From contig JAKCEW010000013.1 in assembly GCA_023539445.1 (NCBI GenBank), positions 1 to 25,870 on the forward strand: a DNA stretch of 25,870 nucleotides. The letters are read 5' to 3'. Below, one piece after another: positions 3,608 through 12,178 of this stretch. The notes under the pieces are model-generated. The model saw only the letters and a list, made by a program, of their open reading frames with translations, did no database searches and was not told the DNA's origin. How positions within the stretch are numbered: position 1 is the first letter of the stretch; the number at the start of each line of letters is the position of its first letter. Made by a program: the position numbers and the translations under genes. Source of the stretch: Candidatus Terraquivivens yellowstonensis (GTDB taxonomy: Archaea; Thermoproteota; Nitrososphaeria_A; Caldarchaeales; Wolframiiraptoraceae).

Positions 3608-4111
3608 CTAATATGCCGTGACGGACTTTACAGTCGGAACGTTCAGCATCTTTCTGATAGCATCACCCGAAGGATGTCTCTCGAGTACAAGTATCAACCT
3701 CGGCTCGGGAAATAGATCGGGGTCCTCAGCAGAAGCCTGCCTTATCGCTATACCCTCCTCAGACACTATCGAGGCAATTTTTGCAAGCACACCGACGGCG
3801 GAAGGGTCTGCTCTGATCTCAAGAACGGAGTATCCCAGTACCTTTGCGATCGGCGATAACAGGGCTCCTGCAGGTCTAAGGCCAGTAAAGATCTTCTTTA
3901 AGGTCTCGTCCGACAGCAGGTACTCGACCGTCTTCCTTACAACCCTTCTATCAACACCAGCTGCTTTTGCAAGGGCAAGGTCCGCTATCTCCACAGGCCC
4001 TACAACTAGGCTTCCCCGCTCCGTTATGCCTATTCCGTGCTCTATCATGAGCCTGACTACCTTAATACGTGCAGGATATTCCTTAAGTTGTTCTAGAATG
4101 TTTTTCCACAT
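3608..4111 (-). CDS. ACT-domain regulator of amino-acid metabolism (COG2150-like)
   Basis: Small archaeal protein of 167 residues with an N-terminal helical part that looks like a winged-helix/HTH region (residues about 15-75, including the segment VEIADLALAKAAGVDRRVVRK) and a C-terminal ACT domain (about 92-165, starting LGYSVLEIRADPSAVGVLAKIASIVSEE in spirit). ACT domains bind small ligands, usually amino acids, so this is a probable ligand-responsive transcription factor. The ligand and targets are not known from sequence. It is transcribed away from the CitG-like gene from a shared, strongly symmetrical promoter region at 4140-4169, which makes autoregulation and control of the divergent gene plausible. 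It is the first gene of the probable unit regulator-PAP2-MgtA. A 167-residue antisense frame over the same bases is a shadow. Confidence 0.8.
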   Translation of the reverse strand: MWKNILEQLKEYPARIKVVRLMIEHGIGITERGSLVVGPVEIADLALAKAAGVDRRVVRKTVEYLLSDETLKKIFTGLRPAGALLSPIAKVLGYSVLEIRADPSAVGVLAKIASIVSEEGIAIRQASAEDPDLFPEPRLILVLERHPSGDAIRKMLNVPTVKSVTAY

Positions 4112-4139
4112 CTCTCAATGACAATTTTTGTGCATAAAG

Positions 4140-4169
4140 GTCCGTTGTTTATAAACTTTTTTAACGGAC
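4140..4169. promoter_or_regulatory. Symmetrical divergent promoter/operator between ACT regulator and CitG-like gene
   Basis: GTCCGTT (4140-4146) and AACGGAC (4163-4169) are perfect 7-base inverted repeats whose centres are 23 bp apart, about two helical turns. Between them GTTTATAAAC (4147-4156) is itself a perfect 10-base palindrome containing a TATA element. The TATA centre is 29 nt before the ATG at 4181 on the plus strand and about 40 nt before the ATG at 4111 on the minus strand, so one element could serve both directions. Operator function is inferred. Confidence 0.6.
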
Positions 4170-4180
4170 GTACCCTTGTT

Positions 4181-5104
4181 ATGCCCATGCAGGATTACGA
4201 AAGGGCCCATAATATAGCGGCCTGTTGCCAGCTTGCCCTCCTCTTGGAGGTAAGCGCATACCCTAAGCCAGGCCTCGTGCACAGGACCAGGGAATTTCAC
4301 GAGACCAGCTTCGAGCATTTCTTATCTTCAGCATCCTCCTTGTACTGGCCCTTCTTCGAGGCGGCCTTGAACGGGATAAGGGGGAAGGTCTCTATTGGAT
4401 GTTTGGTAAGGCTTGCAACGGAACGGATGCTGAGCTGGCAACATGGTGGTAACACGCACTTGGGGGCTCTCTTATTGGTCTTACCGATGGCGACGGCGGC
4501 CGGCATGTCCGACGATTTCCCCGTCGATCCGAGCAGGCTTAGGAAGGAATTGAAAAACGTTCTGAAAATTATGAAGCCGAAAGATACTGAAGAGATTTTT
4601 CGATCCATAGCTTATGTGATGCCAGGAGGACTCGGAAGGGTTCCCTATTTGGACGTGAGAGTTCGTAGGACGTATGAGGAAATTAGGCGCAAAAAGATTA
4701 CGCCCTTAATGGCGCTGAAGCATTATGTGGACAGGGACATAGTCGCTCATGAGTGGGTGACGTGCTACAGCCTCACGTTCGAGCTAGGGTACAAAGAGCT
4801 GAAGAGGGAGATATCAAGGACAAAGAACTTGAACGAAGCTATCGTTAACGCATTTTTGAAGATACTTGCCCAAAAACCAGACACGCTTATAATGAGAAGG
4901 GCTGGGATACAGGTTGCTAGACTCGCATCGAGCATGGCGGCAAAAGCGATTAAATTGGGAGGCATGAGTTCCGCAAAGGGAAGGAAAGAGGTCGAGAAGA
5001 TGGATGAGCAATTTAGGAGGAGCAGGTCCATGAGACCGGGTGCAACTGCGGATCTCTTATGCTCATCCTTGGCAGTCCTCCTAATAGAGGGTTTCAGACC
5101 TTAG
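4181..5104 (+). CDS. CitG-like protein (triphosphoribosyl-dephospho-CoA synthase family, COG1767)
   Basis: Archaeal member of the CitG family, whose bacterial prototype moves a 5-triphosphoribosyl group from ATP to dephospho-CoA. Visible family marks are the N-terminal KPGLVHRTREF followed by FEHFLSSA, the central GGNTHLGALLL motif (family GVNTHKGA), and a helical C-terminal half. No citrate lyase or malonate decarboxylase gene, the usual clients of CitG, occurs here. Instead a DUF447 gene follows 29 bp downstream and mptG, mptA and mptE lie 4-7 kb away, a grouping I recall from H4MPT-dependent methylotrophs as well as archaea. A role in H4MPT synthesis is therefore likely, perhaps transfer of the alpha-ribofuranosyl phosphate. 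Start: the frame opens at 4118, but that extension crosses the TATA box, so ATG 4181 (leaderless, TATA centre 29 nt upstream) or 4187 is preferred. Confidence 0.8.
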   Translation: MPMQDYERAHNIAACCQLALLLEVSAYPKPGLVHRTREFHETSFEHFLSSASSLYWPFFEAALNGIRGKVSIGCLVRLATERMLSWQHGGNTHLGALLLVLPMATAAGMSDDFPVDPSRLRKELKNVLKIMKPKDTEEIFRSIAYVMPGGLGRVPYLDVRVRRTYEEIRRKKITPLMALKHYVDRDIVAHEWVTCYSLTFELGYKELKREISRTKNLNEAIVNAFLKILAQKPDTLIMRRAGIQVARLASSMAAKAIKLGGMSSAKGRKEVEKMDEQFRRSRSMRPGATADLLCSSLAVLLIEGFRP

Positions 5105-5133: not shown

Positions 5134-5826
5134 ATGTCAGAAGCGTACGTGGAGGGGAGTCTAAAAGATTTTATGGATACGAACCATGTAATCCCTCGAG
5201 TAGTTTACGAATGCATACTAACCACGAAAGCGGATGGGGAGACGAATGCGGCACCGATGGGTGTAATCTTCGAGGAAGACGGCATTCTGCTGAGACCATT
5301 CAAAAGCACGAAGAGCTACAGGTTGTTGAAGCGTGCTCCATACGGTGTTGTCAACTTCACCGACGATGTTGAAGTATTTTACATAACGACTTTTGGTGCG
5401 GAAAGCGATTTTAATGAGCTCCTTACACCATCCGTTTCTGTCCCCGCACCATCTTTGGCAAATGCGTATGCTAAGCTAGAATTCTTCGTAGAAAGTTTAG
5501 TGGACGAGGACGATAACCGGGCTGTTTTCAGATGTAAGGTACTCAAGGCTTTATGGAAACTAAGAGAAGCAAAACCGTACACTAGAGCTGAGCATGCAGT
5601 TATCGAATCACTCATTCATGCGACGAGGTTAAAGTTCTTCCTAGAAAGTGGCATGATTCAAGAGGCCATCCAGCTTGCACACCTTATCAAACATTATGAT
5701 GCGCTAGTTTCTAGGGTGGCACCGAACACCGTCTACTCGTCCATAATGGTTAAGCTAAAAGCGTTAATTTCCAGCTGGGGATTGTCTGGGCCTCTTCTGG
5801 GTCTTTTTGAGTTCCAGAAAGAGTAG
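5134..5826 (+). CDS. DUF447 family protein (COG2457), probable flavin-binding split-barrel
   Basis: 230-residue protein of the DUF447 family. The N-terminal half (about 15-95) resembles an FMN-binding split barrel: HVIPRVVYECILTT, then DGETNAAPMGV, LLRPFKSTKSYRLL and GVVNFTDDVEVFY. As I recall, an archaeal member has been crystallised with FMN. The C-terminal half (about 130-225) is helical. Family members co-occur with H4MPT biosynthesis genes in archaea and methylotrophic bacteria, and here it follows the CitG-like gene and lies near mptG/mptA/mptE. The reaction is unknown; a flavin-dependent reduction in cofactor assembly is a reasonable guess. ATG 5134 is chosen for homology and TATA spacing. 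Its last 63 bases overlap the convergent signal peptidase gene. Confidence 0.8.
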   Translation: MSEAYVEGSLKDFMDTNHVIPRVVYECILTTKADGETNAAPMGVIFEEDGILLRPFKSTKSYRLLKRAPYGVVNFTDDVEVFYITTFGAESDFNELLTPSVSVPAPSLANAYAKLEFFVESLVDEDDNRAVFRCKVLKALWKLREAKPYTRAEHAVIESLIHATRLKFFLESGMIQEAIQLAHLIKHYDALVSRVAPNTVYSSIMVKLKALISSWGLSGPLLGLFEFQKE

Positions 5827-9417: not shown

Positions 9418-10362
9418 CTAAATTCTTCGTATAATGGCACCGGAGTTCGTGGCTTTCGTAATTAGCACGATTCCCTTATCTGCGAGAACATCTCTCAAAG
9501 CGGATGCAACCCTATTCGCATTCTTCATAGAATCTGTGAATCCATAGGCCGTAGGCCCCCACGAGCTCTGGCCCGAACCGGCCGCACCGTTCTCCAACAT
9601 GGTCTTGACACAGAGATGCGTCAATTCATTCGAGAATATGCCGCCCTGAACGCTCGAGAAGCACATGCCGACGAGTCTTTGTACTTCGCTCAGCGCATCC
9701 CCAAATTCCCACACATCTTCTTCCAATATTCCTGGGATTAGCTTCATCAGTACGAGCCTAGATATTCTGTCAGCTATCCATTCTGGTTGTCTTCCAAGGC
9801 TCTTAAAAGCCATCTCTTCTTCCTCATCGCTCAACCCCCTGACACCGAAGGGTATTGCGAGAACTATCGGCCATCTTTCTGGGAAATCTATTCTCATGAT
9901 GACCGGCGGAATTTGTTTTTTACCGGGCTTTATGCCCCCGTCGATAACGAATCCACCGTGCTTGAAGACTGCCGTTCCGATGCCGGACCTTGTACCCCTC
10001 CCGAGCTTGATTGCTAACTCTTCGACCGAAAGCTCGATATCCAAGAGGTTTGCCAACCCTGCTGCCATGCCCAATAAAGTCTGCGTTCCAGAGCCTAAGC
10101 CCACGTGCCTTGGTATCTTGTTCATAACATTTACAGCAAACCCATCAGCGATACCTAGTGCCGACTTGGACTTTTCAGCCGCCTCATTTAGGAACGCGTC
10201 ATACGGTTCGATCACGATCTCCGAGGTTTTAGGCTCGATAATCGCCTCGAAGGATGGCTCTGAGATGGAAAGGCCTAGGGAGCCGTAAAGCCTACCAAGA
10301 CTACCGTTGAGGTCTATCATACCCAGGTGGAGCCTAGAGGGGGTTTTGACGTATACTTTCAT
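9418..10362 (-). CDS. mptG: Beta-ribofuranosylaminobenzene 5'-phosphate synthase (MptG)
   Basis: Catalyses the committed step of H4MPT synthesis, joining p-aminobenzoate and phosphoribosyl pyrophosphate with loss of CO2 and pyrophosphate to make beta-RFAP. The protein has the GHMP-kinase fold: N-terminal SRLHLGMIDLNG, a glycine-rich GLGSGTQ (88-94), GRGTRSGIGTAVFKHGGFVIDGG in pieces around 112-134, and C-terminal GAAGSGQSSWGPTAYG. Length (314) matches family. A GGTGA lies 8 nt before the ATG. It is divergent from mptA, 43-55 bp away, so one short intergenic region controls both arms of the pathway. Confidence 0.92.
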   Translation of the reverse strand: MKVYVKTPSRLHLGMIDLNGSLGRLYGSLGLSISEPSFEAIIEPKTSEIVIEPYDAFLNEAAEKSKSALGIADGFAVNVMNKIPRHVGLGSGTQTLLGMAAGLANLLDIELSVEELAIKLGRGTRSGIGTAVFKHGGFVIDGGIKPGKKQIPPVIMRIDFPERWPIVLAIPFGVRGLSDEEEEMAFKSLGRQPEWIADRISRLVLMKLIPGILEEDVWEFGDALSEVQRLVGMCFSSVQGGIFSNELTHLCVKTMLENGAAGSGQSSWGPTAYGFTDSMKNANRVASALRDVLADKGIVLITKATNSGAIIRRI

Positions 10363-10417
10363 GCTGGCTCACCGTTAAATCCCGGCCGAGTCCCCCTACT
10401 AAACGTTGGATGGAGAA

Positions 10418-11341
10418 ATGCGAGCCCCAGATATAAAGGACGAGCAACCCGATGTGAAGCTACCCATACGGCTGGTTGGTATAGATGGTGTAAGGATGCC
10501 TGCTGGCCAGGTCAGGTTGGGAGATTCGAGATCCGTCATGACCGTAAGGCTCGGTGCCTTCATAGACCTTCCACCCGAACGACGCGGTATACACGCCTCT
10601 AGGAACTATGAGCCCATAGCGGAGGTGATAAAAGCGTACGAGGGCAAAGCCTTCAAGCTTGAAGACATTGTAGCGGAGATAGCAGCTTCTTTGCTGAAAA
10701 AGCATGAGTACTCCAAAAGGTCTTACGTGAAGGCGGATGCGACAGCCTTCTACGCGACAAAGATGCCTTCAGAGAACATCTCCTATGAGACGTTTACTAT
10801 ACATGCTAGGAGCTATGCTACGAGGGAAGGAAAAGTTCTCTCAATAAAGAAGATGGTGGGTGTGACAGTCACGGGCATGACTGCCTGTCCCTGTGCACTA
10901 GAACACATCAAAGAAATATGCAAAGAGGAATTGGCGATGTTTGATAAGGGAAGCTCAGGGCAGATGATAGATAGGTTGCCGATAGCAACCCACATGCAAA
11001 GATGCAAAGGTACGTTGCTCATTGAAGTATCGGAGGATGATGTTGATGTTATGGACCTCGTCAGGATAGTTAACGAGTCCATGAGCTCTGCAACGTATGG
11101 ACTGCTTAAGAGGGATGACGAGGCTAATGTGGTGGTGAACGCCGTCAGGAAGGCGCGGCTTGTTGAGGATGTAGCAAGGTACATGGCAAAGGCAGCCTCG
11201 GAGCTGAAGGTTAAGGATGGGTGTACGATATTGGCGAAAGCGAGGAGTATGGAGAGCGTCCACGGGCACGACATAGTGGCGTTCATCAAGACAACTGCCG
11301 GAGAGGTTAGGAGAGCGCTCGCTACTAAAAGGCATATATAA
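10418..11341 (+). CDS. mptA: GTP cyclohydrolase MptA (FolE2-like, type IB)
   Basis: Opens the pterin branch of H4MPT synthesis by converting GTP to 7,8-dihydroneopterin 2',3'-cyclic phosphate with a metal-dependent mechanism. Diagnostic sequence: PDIKDEQPDV at the N-terminus, GIHASR, SIKKMVGVTVTGMTACPCA with the metal-site cysteine region, and PIATHMQRCKGTL. Length about 308-312 residues is normal. Start is uncertain: ATG 10418 is used here; an in-frame TTG at 10406 would add four residues and sits about 29 nt after a TATA-like GTTAAAT. Its stop overlaps the TATA box of mptE. Confidence 0.92.
   Translation: MRAPDIKDEQPDVKLPIRLVGIDGVRMPAGQVRLGDSRSVMTVRLGAFIDLPPERRGIHASRNYEPIAEVIKAYEGKAFKLEDIVAEIAASLLKKHEYSKRSYVKADATAFYATKMPSENISYETFTIHARSYATREGKVLSIKKMVGVTVTGMTACPCALEHIKEICKEELAMFDKGSSGQMIDRLPIATHMQRCKGTLLIEVSEDDVDVMDLVRIVNESMSSATYGLLKRDDEANVVVNAVRKARLVEDVARYMAKAASELKVKDGCTILAKARSMESVHGHDIVAFIKTTAGEVRRALATKRHI
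11332..11341 (+). promoter_or_regulatory. TATA box for mptE overlapping the mptA stop
   Basis: GCATATATAA spans the last codons and stop of mptA and is centred 26 nt before the GTG at 11363, predicting a leaderless mptE transcript. Confidence 0.5.
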
Positions 11342-11362: not shown

Positions 11363-12178
11363 GTGAAAAGATTCCATAACCCTTGGATAACTTTGGATGA
11401 ATGGTTGGTGTGGTATCACAAAATTGTTAAGGAGTGCCAATTCGATGAACTTGCAGACTTTGAGGCGGCTACGCTTCTCAATTCCATGCTGAGCGGTAAG
11501 GCCTTGAAATTTACACAAATCGAACGCAAGCTTTCGGGCAAGGTTTCTATTGTATTCGGCGCCGGTCCTTCTCTCGCTATTGACGTTAAAAAGTTTGTAG
11601 AATTTCCCCAGAGACGTGTCTTCACGATCTTAGCCGCCGACGGCGCTACCGCTGCATTACTCGAGCATGGTGTGATTCCAGACGTCGTTGTTACGGATCT
11701 AGACGGACCCGTTGATGAGCTGCTGGAGGCTTACGCGCATGGTTCAATACTCGTTGTTCATGCACACGGCGATAACATTCCCCAAATCAAAAACATCATA
11801 CCCTTAATTTCTGATAGGGTTTTGCCAACGACCCAGATAGAACCCTTCGGTTGCCTATATAACTTCGGGGGCTTTACGGACGGTGATAGGGCAGCATTCC
11901 TGTGCTCCTCTGCCAGCGTCAAGGCCATAGTTCTGGCCGGAATGGATTTGGGAGAGGAAATAGGCCCATACTCAAAACCCCTCAAAATGCTAACGTCTGA
12001 ACGTCTGGAGATGAAAAGGAAGAAGCTAAAGATAGCGAAGGAGTTGCTCGAATGGTTGGCGAGCAAAATACCGCTACCGATATACGATTTGACGACACAT
12101 GGTACGGAGTTGCAGGGAATAATAAAGCTAGGGTCGTTTAACGAGCTTCCGTTGCATAAGCTGATATGTTCGACCTAA
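11363..12178 (+). CDS. mptE: 6-hydroxymethyl-7,8-dihydropterin pyrophosphokinase (MptE)
   Basis: Transfers pyrophosphate from ATP to 6-hydroxymethyl-dihydropterin, activating the pterin for coupling to beta-RFAP. This archaeal enzyme (COG1634, DUF115-type fold) is unrelated to bacterial FolK. Visible motifs: VSIVFGAGPSL (62-71), LAADGATAALLEHG, VVVTDLDG (108-115), ILVVHAHGDN, the FGCLYNFGGFTDGDRA segment and VLAGMDLGEEIG near 195. Length 271 is somewhat above the family average because of an N-terminal helical extension beginning HNPWITLDEW. Start is GTG 11363, 21 bp after mptA. Being next to mptA and close to mptG gives strong context. Confidence 0.92.
   Translation: MKRFHNPWITLDEWLVWYHKIVKECQFDELADFEAATLLNSMLSGKALKFTQIERKLSGKVSIVFGAGPSLAIDVKKFVEFPQRRVFTILAADGATAALLEHGVIPDVVVTDLDGPVDELLEAYAHGSILVVHAHGDNIPQIKNIIPLISDRVLPTTQIEPFGCLYNFGGFTDGDRAAFLCSSASVKAIVLAGMDLGEEIGPYSKPLKMLTSERLEMKRKKLKIAKELLEWLASKIPLPIYDLTTHGTELQGIIKLGSFNELPLHKLICST

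Follow-up and report, generated by a model that had tools for sequence, protein, structure and literature searches.

The citG locus

The window, by which we mean the whole stretch of 25,870 nucleotides analysed here (contig JAKCEW010000013.1 of Candidatus Terraquivivens yellowstonensis), carries a gene of the CitG family followed by a DUF447 gene and, a few kilobases further on, by genes of methanopterin synthesis. The features considered in this work are listed below.

4112..4180, + strand: intergenic region, candidate promoter of citG-DUF447, common to a divergent TrpY-type gene (proposed from gene positions only)
4181..5104, + strand: CitG-family protein, 307 aa (PF01874, 226 bits; core residues kept; pLDDT 93.7)
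5134..5826, + strand: DUF447 protein, probable FMN-binding split-barrel flavoprotein (PF04289, 69.8 bits; PF20766, 28.9 bits)
9418..10362, - strand: MptG, beta-ribofuranosylaminobenzene 5'-phosphate synthase, which adds the first ribose (TIGR00144, 197.7 bits, over the cut-off)
10406..11341, + strand: MptA, archaeal GTP cyclohydrolase (TIGR00294, 261.9 bits, over the cut-off)
11363..12178, + strand: MptE-like 6-hydroxymethylpterin diphosphokinase (PF01973, 87.8 bits)

The first-pass annotation had described a CitG-family gene at 4181-5104, paired with DUF447, lying within 7 kb of mptG, mptA and mptE and with no citrate lyase client nearby, and this description held on every point. The PF01874 match is full-length (model positions 1-283 of 284) and far above the cut-off of 27 bits; DUF447 follows on the + strand after a gap of 29 bases; mptG, mptA and the mptE-like gene are 4.3 to 7.1 kb away; and no citrate lyase or malonate decarboxylase subunit was found among the ten window proteins scanned. 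The open frame runs from 4118 to 5104 on the + strand. Translation from the in-frame ATG at 4118 would make the protein 328 aa long, against the 307 aa (MPMQDYERAH...) obtained from the ATG at 4181; since PF01874 is matched from residue 13 of the 307-aa form onward, we consider 4181 the sensible start. A search of the whole 1.16-Mb genome found CitG in a single copy. The order citG-DUF447 ... mptG-mptA-mptE is kept in a genome of the same genus (CitG identity 83%) and also in a sister genus, and is therefore not a chance arrangement of one assembly. MptG, when scored against the model NF040726, reaches 227.7 bits, below the cut-off of 328.

Divergent from citG lies a gene for a TrpY-family regulator (3608-4111, - strand; 166.7 bits, just below the NCBIfam cut-off), which is also kept in the same-genus genome (locus L044) and is a possible regulator of the citG operon.

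The relatives of DUF447 in the PDB are 2iml, 2nr4, 3b5m and 2ptf and, weakly, the FMN oxidoreductase 2d36. Among 101 genomes of the phylum (see below) its gene adjoins mptG in about 14 and citG in others. Our guess, from family and place, is that the first ribose is opened to ribitol by a flavin-dependent reduction for which DUF447 may be responsible.

Relationship to CitG and MdcB

The window protein has in common with E. coli CitG and with MdcB the core K29-P30-G31, N91-T92-x-x-G95, D234 and P286-G287-x-x-A290-D291, where a core residue is one kept in at least 15 of 16 alignment rows and the reference set consists of E. coli CitG and three MdcB proteins. The acceptor-side stretch GAHxDM of CitG and MdcB is replaced. 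When the equivalog models were applied, the protein scored 55.9 bits for CitG (TIGR03125, cut-off 272.3), 86.7 bits for MdcB (TIGR03132, cut-off 282.35) and 23.4 bits for NF007503 (cut-off 477).

The best PDB match of the predicted structure is 3h9p, with a TM-score of 0.90 by target length. Weaker structural matches after it include ADP-ribosylhydrolase 3, an enzyme of alpha-ribosyl links, whose likeness to the model is too weak for a claim of kinship.

In an unrooted tree of 50 proteins, CitG and MdcB form one group (100/100) and the CitG proteins of bacterial tetrahydromethanopterin (H4MPT) islands form a group of their own (100/100) within the archaeal rows. The window protein, together with five order-mates, is placed between CitG/MdcB and all other rows (100/99), on the CitG/MdcB side and short of the main archaeal group; the MdcB branch is long, and long-branch attraction may be partly behind this placement. 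If CitG/MdcB are taken as outgroup, all the archaeal and H4MPT-island proteins fall on one side.

Distribution of CitG across archaea

A draw of 101 genomes of the window's phylum was searched with profiles for CitG (found in 43), MptG (39 at 80 bits or more, a line set after the scores were known), DUF447 (35) and the H4MPT enzyme Mch (21). CitG and MptG occur together in 36 genomes, CitG alone in seven, MptG alone in three and neither in 55. All seven genomes with CitG and no recognisable MptG (G001, G015, G023, G031, G049, G056 and G073) possess Mch, and could either have a different enzyme for the first ribose or take up a precursor. The phylogenetic profile that had been proposed as a check on the role of CitG thus came out in its favour: MptG or Mch is present in 43 of 43 CitG genomes, and CitG in none of the 49 genomes that have neither. 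Counted by genus, CitG against MptG/Mch gave 29/0/6/25 (p = 1.5e-11), counts that are not independent of ancestry. DUF447 accompanies CitG in 32 of the 43 genomes.

Mch was found neither in the window's genome nor in 13 of 14 order-mates, and CitG, MptG and DUF447 are kept in all 14 Mch-less genomes of the order. All three proteins also match in the controls Methanocaldococcus jannaschii, Methanosarcina acetivorans, Haloferax volcanii and Sulfolobus acidocaldarius. Haloarchaea are considered to lack methanopterin-specific enzymes (PMC8305020), and the homologues in H. volcanii count against the explanation that we prefer below. It had been argued beforehand that a wide occurrence of CitG in genomes lacking H4MPT would speak against a role in its synthesis; such genomes do exist (S. 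acidocaldarius, H. volcanii and the window's own), but MptG and DUF447 match in each of them. From the Mch-less order, Sulfolobus and Haloferax we conclude that CitG follows an MptG-type arylribitol pterin, not the C1 enzymes of H4MPT. For the same reason the product of the window's genome, where Mch is lacking, is called here an MptG-type pterin rather than H4MPT, and we lean slightly against H4MPT itself being made in this organism. The earlier suggestion of CitG as a candidate for the phosphoribosyl transfer of H4MPT therefore stands only in part: its link to the pathway is borne out by co-occurrence, methanogens, neighbourhoods and bacterial operons, while H4MPT as the product in this genome is not.

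CitG was found in 111 of 114 genomes of Methanobacteriota, and MptG scores over its cut-off in eight of eight CitG genomes from varied archaeal lineages. The link is weaker in 119 Asgard genomes (CitG 102, Mch 83, MptG 50), where many genomes have CitG and no recognisable MptG: CitG and Mch occur together in 79, CitG alone in 23, Mch alone in four and neither in 13, and MptG or Mch accompanies CitG in 84 of 102. In 16 of the 18 remaining CitG genomes, without MptG and Mch, the protein is divergent, scoring below 160 bits, a line also drawn with the scores in hand. Seven of ten fetched loci of this group (L163-L172) share a neighbourhood of unrelated genes, without H4MPT genes, and the group probably does something else, a third role for the family.

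Gene neighbourhoods of CitG

Every protein encoded around citG at 101 archaeal loci was entered into a clustering with no preselection of families. The leading neighbours are a nucleotidyltransferase, NT hereafter (41 loci), DUF447 (19), an ECF-type membrane protein (18), FmdA and FmdB (13 each), a DHPS-like protein (TIGR00284, 13), Mch and MptG (11 each), MptE, MptA and a DmrX-like flavoprotein (10 each), CofE, an MptN-like RimK ligase and DUF1464 (nine each), Mtd (eight) and Mer (seven), the names CofE, Mtd and Mer being assigned by eye. C1 and H4MPT genes account for almost the whole list, and no lyase or decarboxylase gene is enriched around these loci.

The ECF-type protein is an S component (PF07155/PF12822, weakly of the folate family TIGR04518) found beside citG in L040, L043, L047, L053 and 14 other loci. 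Among the phylum loci examined it is present in four of six MptG-minus and none of 14 MptG-plus loci (p about 0.003), and archaea without MptG may use it to take up a methanopterin precursor.

In bacteria, four annotated plasmid islands (Phyllobacterium, Azospirillum, Azoarcus and Thiodictyon) show the order mptG-mtdB-ATPgrasp-mch-rimK-citG-fae, with which two unannotated H4MPT islands agree; in Azoarcus the gene in the place of rimK is annotated as hypothetical. The rimK gene of the islands is of the orf5 (MyfB) type, and the position of citG, between orf5 and fae, is that of orf7 of Methylosinus (PMC3615186). The orf7 of another report (PMC7391723) is a different gene. All genes of the methylotroph H4MPT cluster are reported to be essential for growth on methanol (PMC8141765).

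A nucleotidyltransferase that accompanies CitG

The commonest neighbour, NT, is a protein of about 340 aa whose gene is often adjacent to citG. It carries the motif GhSGS...SDIDhhhYG, also written G(V/I)(S/T)GS...SDIDhhhYG, with GS...DxD in all aligned members. Matches to PF01909 are mostly of 22-33 bits against a cut-off of 21, and two members lie below it (B-type, 19.8 bits; methanogen, 17.2). The first-pass annotation missed this partner because it lies outside the window: the genome has two NT genes in tandem, away from the mpt genes (contig C22 of genome G000, 48642-50602; locus L147, 8616-10633).

A profile search found NT in 47 of the 101 phylum genomes, namely in 41 of the 43 with CitG (p = 2e-19, counts again not independent of ancestry) and in six others, each of which has MptG or Mch. 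Of 32 methanogens, 30 have it, as do 12 of 13 Asgard genomes with both CitG and Mch; it was found in none of the 18 Asgard CitG genomes without MptG and Mch. One Asgard operon reads MptG-DUF1464-DmrX-like-TIGR00284-MptA-NT-NT, and in genome G064, of family f20, which we take to be Sulfolobaceae, a DUF1464-like gene, the NT gene and citG are mutually overlapping. It is most likely that CitG and NT work together.

Five NTs of four genomes match PF01909 and related palm models and do not match the MdcG models PF10620 and PF20866, both of which a real MdcG matches. The predicted structure of NT (pLDDT 93) found no full-length match in the PDB, where matches were to an OB-like C-terminal part and, weakly, to palms of poly(A)-polymerase type. 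Relatives of NT with about 24-27% identity occur on L157 and other Streptomyces plasmids, beside a kinase/phosphotransferase-like gene and methyltransferases; the NT family is thus not confined to a methanopterin-type pathway.

NT was found neither in 30 kb read around each of the bacterial islands L031-L034 nor on any H4MPT-bearing plasmid of the collection, a survey covering plasmids only. The coenzyme of Methylorubrum is dephospho-H4MPT, which has neither the phosphate nor the hydroxyglutarate (PMC8141765), so islands with CitG and without NT are what a division of labour between the two proteins predicts. We also considered NT as a marker of true, Mch-dependent H4MPT only; this idea was dropped, since NT occurs in the Mch-less order of the window and in family f20. 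The occurrence of CitG and NT without Mch in these two groups, where hydroxyglutarate is not known to occur, counts against the explanation given in the next section. So do the genomes with CitG and no recognisable MptG (seven in the phylum draw and many in Asgard), the 18 Asgard CitG genomes with neither MptG nor Mch, and the position of the window protein in the tree.

Proposed reaction and alternative explanations

C1 units are carried on methanopterin not only in methanogens but also in many other archaea and in bacteria that are methylotrophic. In H4MPT an alpha-ribofuranosyl group is attached to the ribityl arm, and its 5-phosphate forms a phosphodiester with 2-hydroxyglutarate; to our knowledge, the enzymes for this second ribose and for the phosphodiester have not been assigned. 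In the CitG reaction ATP gives up its adenine, and the 5-triphosphoribosyl group is passed to a hydroxyl in an alpha link; CitX or MdcG then uses the 5-phosphate to make a phosphodiester with a serine residue of the acyl carrier protein, with loss of pyrophosphate. Since the product of CitG and CitX and the arm of H4MPT are alike bond for bond, we suggest that the ribosyl step falls to CitG and the hydroxyglutarate step to NT. The ribityl arm of the pterin precursor would attack C1 of the ribose of ATP through its 5-hydroxyl; adenine would leave and the beta link would be inverted, giving an alpha-ribofuranosyl 5-triphosphate on the arm. In true H4MPT makers NT would then esterify the hydroxyl of (S)-2-hydroxyglutarate with the 5-phosphate, with release of pyrophosphate, so that the pair would repeat the chemistry of CitG-CitX and MdcB-MdcG on a small-molecule acceptor. 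Open papers linking CitG with methanopterin or methanogens were not found in our literature search, nor were relevant ones on methanopterin and nucleotidyltransferases.

Our confidence differs along this chain. That CitG belongs to an MptG-type pterin or H4MPT-type pathway is very well supported by distribution and neighbourhoods, and the addition of the second ribose is a likely candidate activity. ATP is a somewhat favoured donor, and for the putative formation of the hydroxyglutarate phosphodiester by NT we see about even chances. Read as a whole, the window protein is probably a glycosyltransferase of the CitG family that came to serve MptG-type pterin synthesis and is driven by ATP, with NT for the hydroxyglutarate step. 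The stricter statement, that CitG and NT build the alpha-ribosyl phosphodiester arm of H4MPT itself, at the expense of ATP and without drawing the second ribose from PRPP, is put forward more tentatively.

Among the other explanations, the one to be taken most seriously, though it appears unlikely, is that CitG adds the second ribose from PRPP to give a 5-monophosphate, whose phosphate NT activates with an NTP before hydroxyglutarate is joined. All our data on co-occurrence and neighbourhood fit this equally well, and White, working with cell extracts in 1996, reportedly gave the role of ribosyl donor to PRPP and not to ATP. However, characterised CitG enzymes use ATP and their core residues, common to CitG and MdcB, are kept here; moreover PRPP is an alpha donor, from which simple inversion should give a beta link and not the alpha link of H4MPT. 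Less probable still is a different step, either on the arylribitol before it is coupled to the pterin or in a branch off the pathway, methanofuran or F420 for instance. The F420 gene cofE does lie near citG in the nine loci counted above, and the bacterial islands also carry methylofuran genes, but the established structures of methanofuran and F420 have no second ribosyl link, and CitG tracks MptG or Mch without exception in the phylum draw and is kept in MptG genomes that lack Mch.

A full-length PF01874 protein with the core residues of its family could also be an ordinary triphosphoribosyl-dephospho-CoA synthase serving an unrecognised acyl-carrier client; the equivalog scores far below both cut-offs, the replaced GAHxDM stretch and the lack of lyase or decarboxylase genes among enriched neighbours make this very improbable. 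We give hardly any weight to the idea that the gene has nothing to do with MptG-type pterins in this organism, after the example of the 18 Asgard CitG genomes, mostly divergent, that lack MptG, Mch and NT, as here citG sits beside DUF447 and near mptG, mptA and mptE in a genome with two NTs.

If the pathway assigned here to CitG and NT is correct, candidate genes are obtained at once for both the second ribose and the hydroxyglutarate phosphodiester of methanopterin, the presence of "CitG" in so many archaea without citrate lyase is accounted for, a widespread annotation is corrected, and steps specific to methane-making archaea are on offer.

Comparison with known systems

The Archaeoglobus fulgidus structure 3h9p has the same fold as the model of the window protein, which it matches by sequence at 69 bits; its label, "putative triphosphoribosyl-dephospho-CoA synthase", is by homology only. 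The CitG-CitX system of E. coli (L158) is of the same family, with the core residues kept as in the window protein, and its citG overlaps the gene of the partner transferase within the citrate lyase operon. There the client is an acyl carrier protein and the acceptor motif GAHxDM is present, unlike in the window protein.

The MdcB loci matched in bacteria sit in malonate decarboxylase operons. In MdcB-MdcG (Cupriavidus, L036; Phyllobacterium, L159) a CitG-family protein is again combined with a transferase, whose nucleotidyltransferase motif, GVTGA...SDIDLL, is close to that of NT. The archaeal NT differs from MdcG in being longer, in matching PF01909 only weakly and in having the OB-like C-terminal part; as it is not an MdcG in Pfam terms, we infer its likeness of role to CitX and MdcG. 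In the methylotroph H4MPT island (Methylosinus, Methylorubrum) orf7 occupies the place of the CitG-like gene, with the rimK-type orf5 on one side and fae on the other; it differs from the archaeal system in that the island proteins are a separate bacterial clade, with no NT in the islands seen and a coenzyme that lacks the phosphate and hydroxyglutarate.
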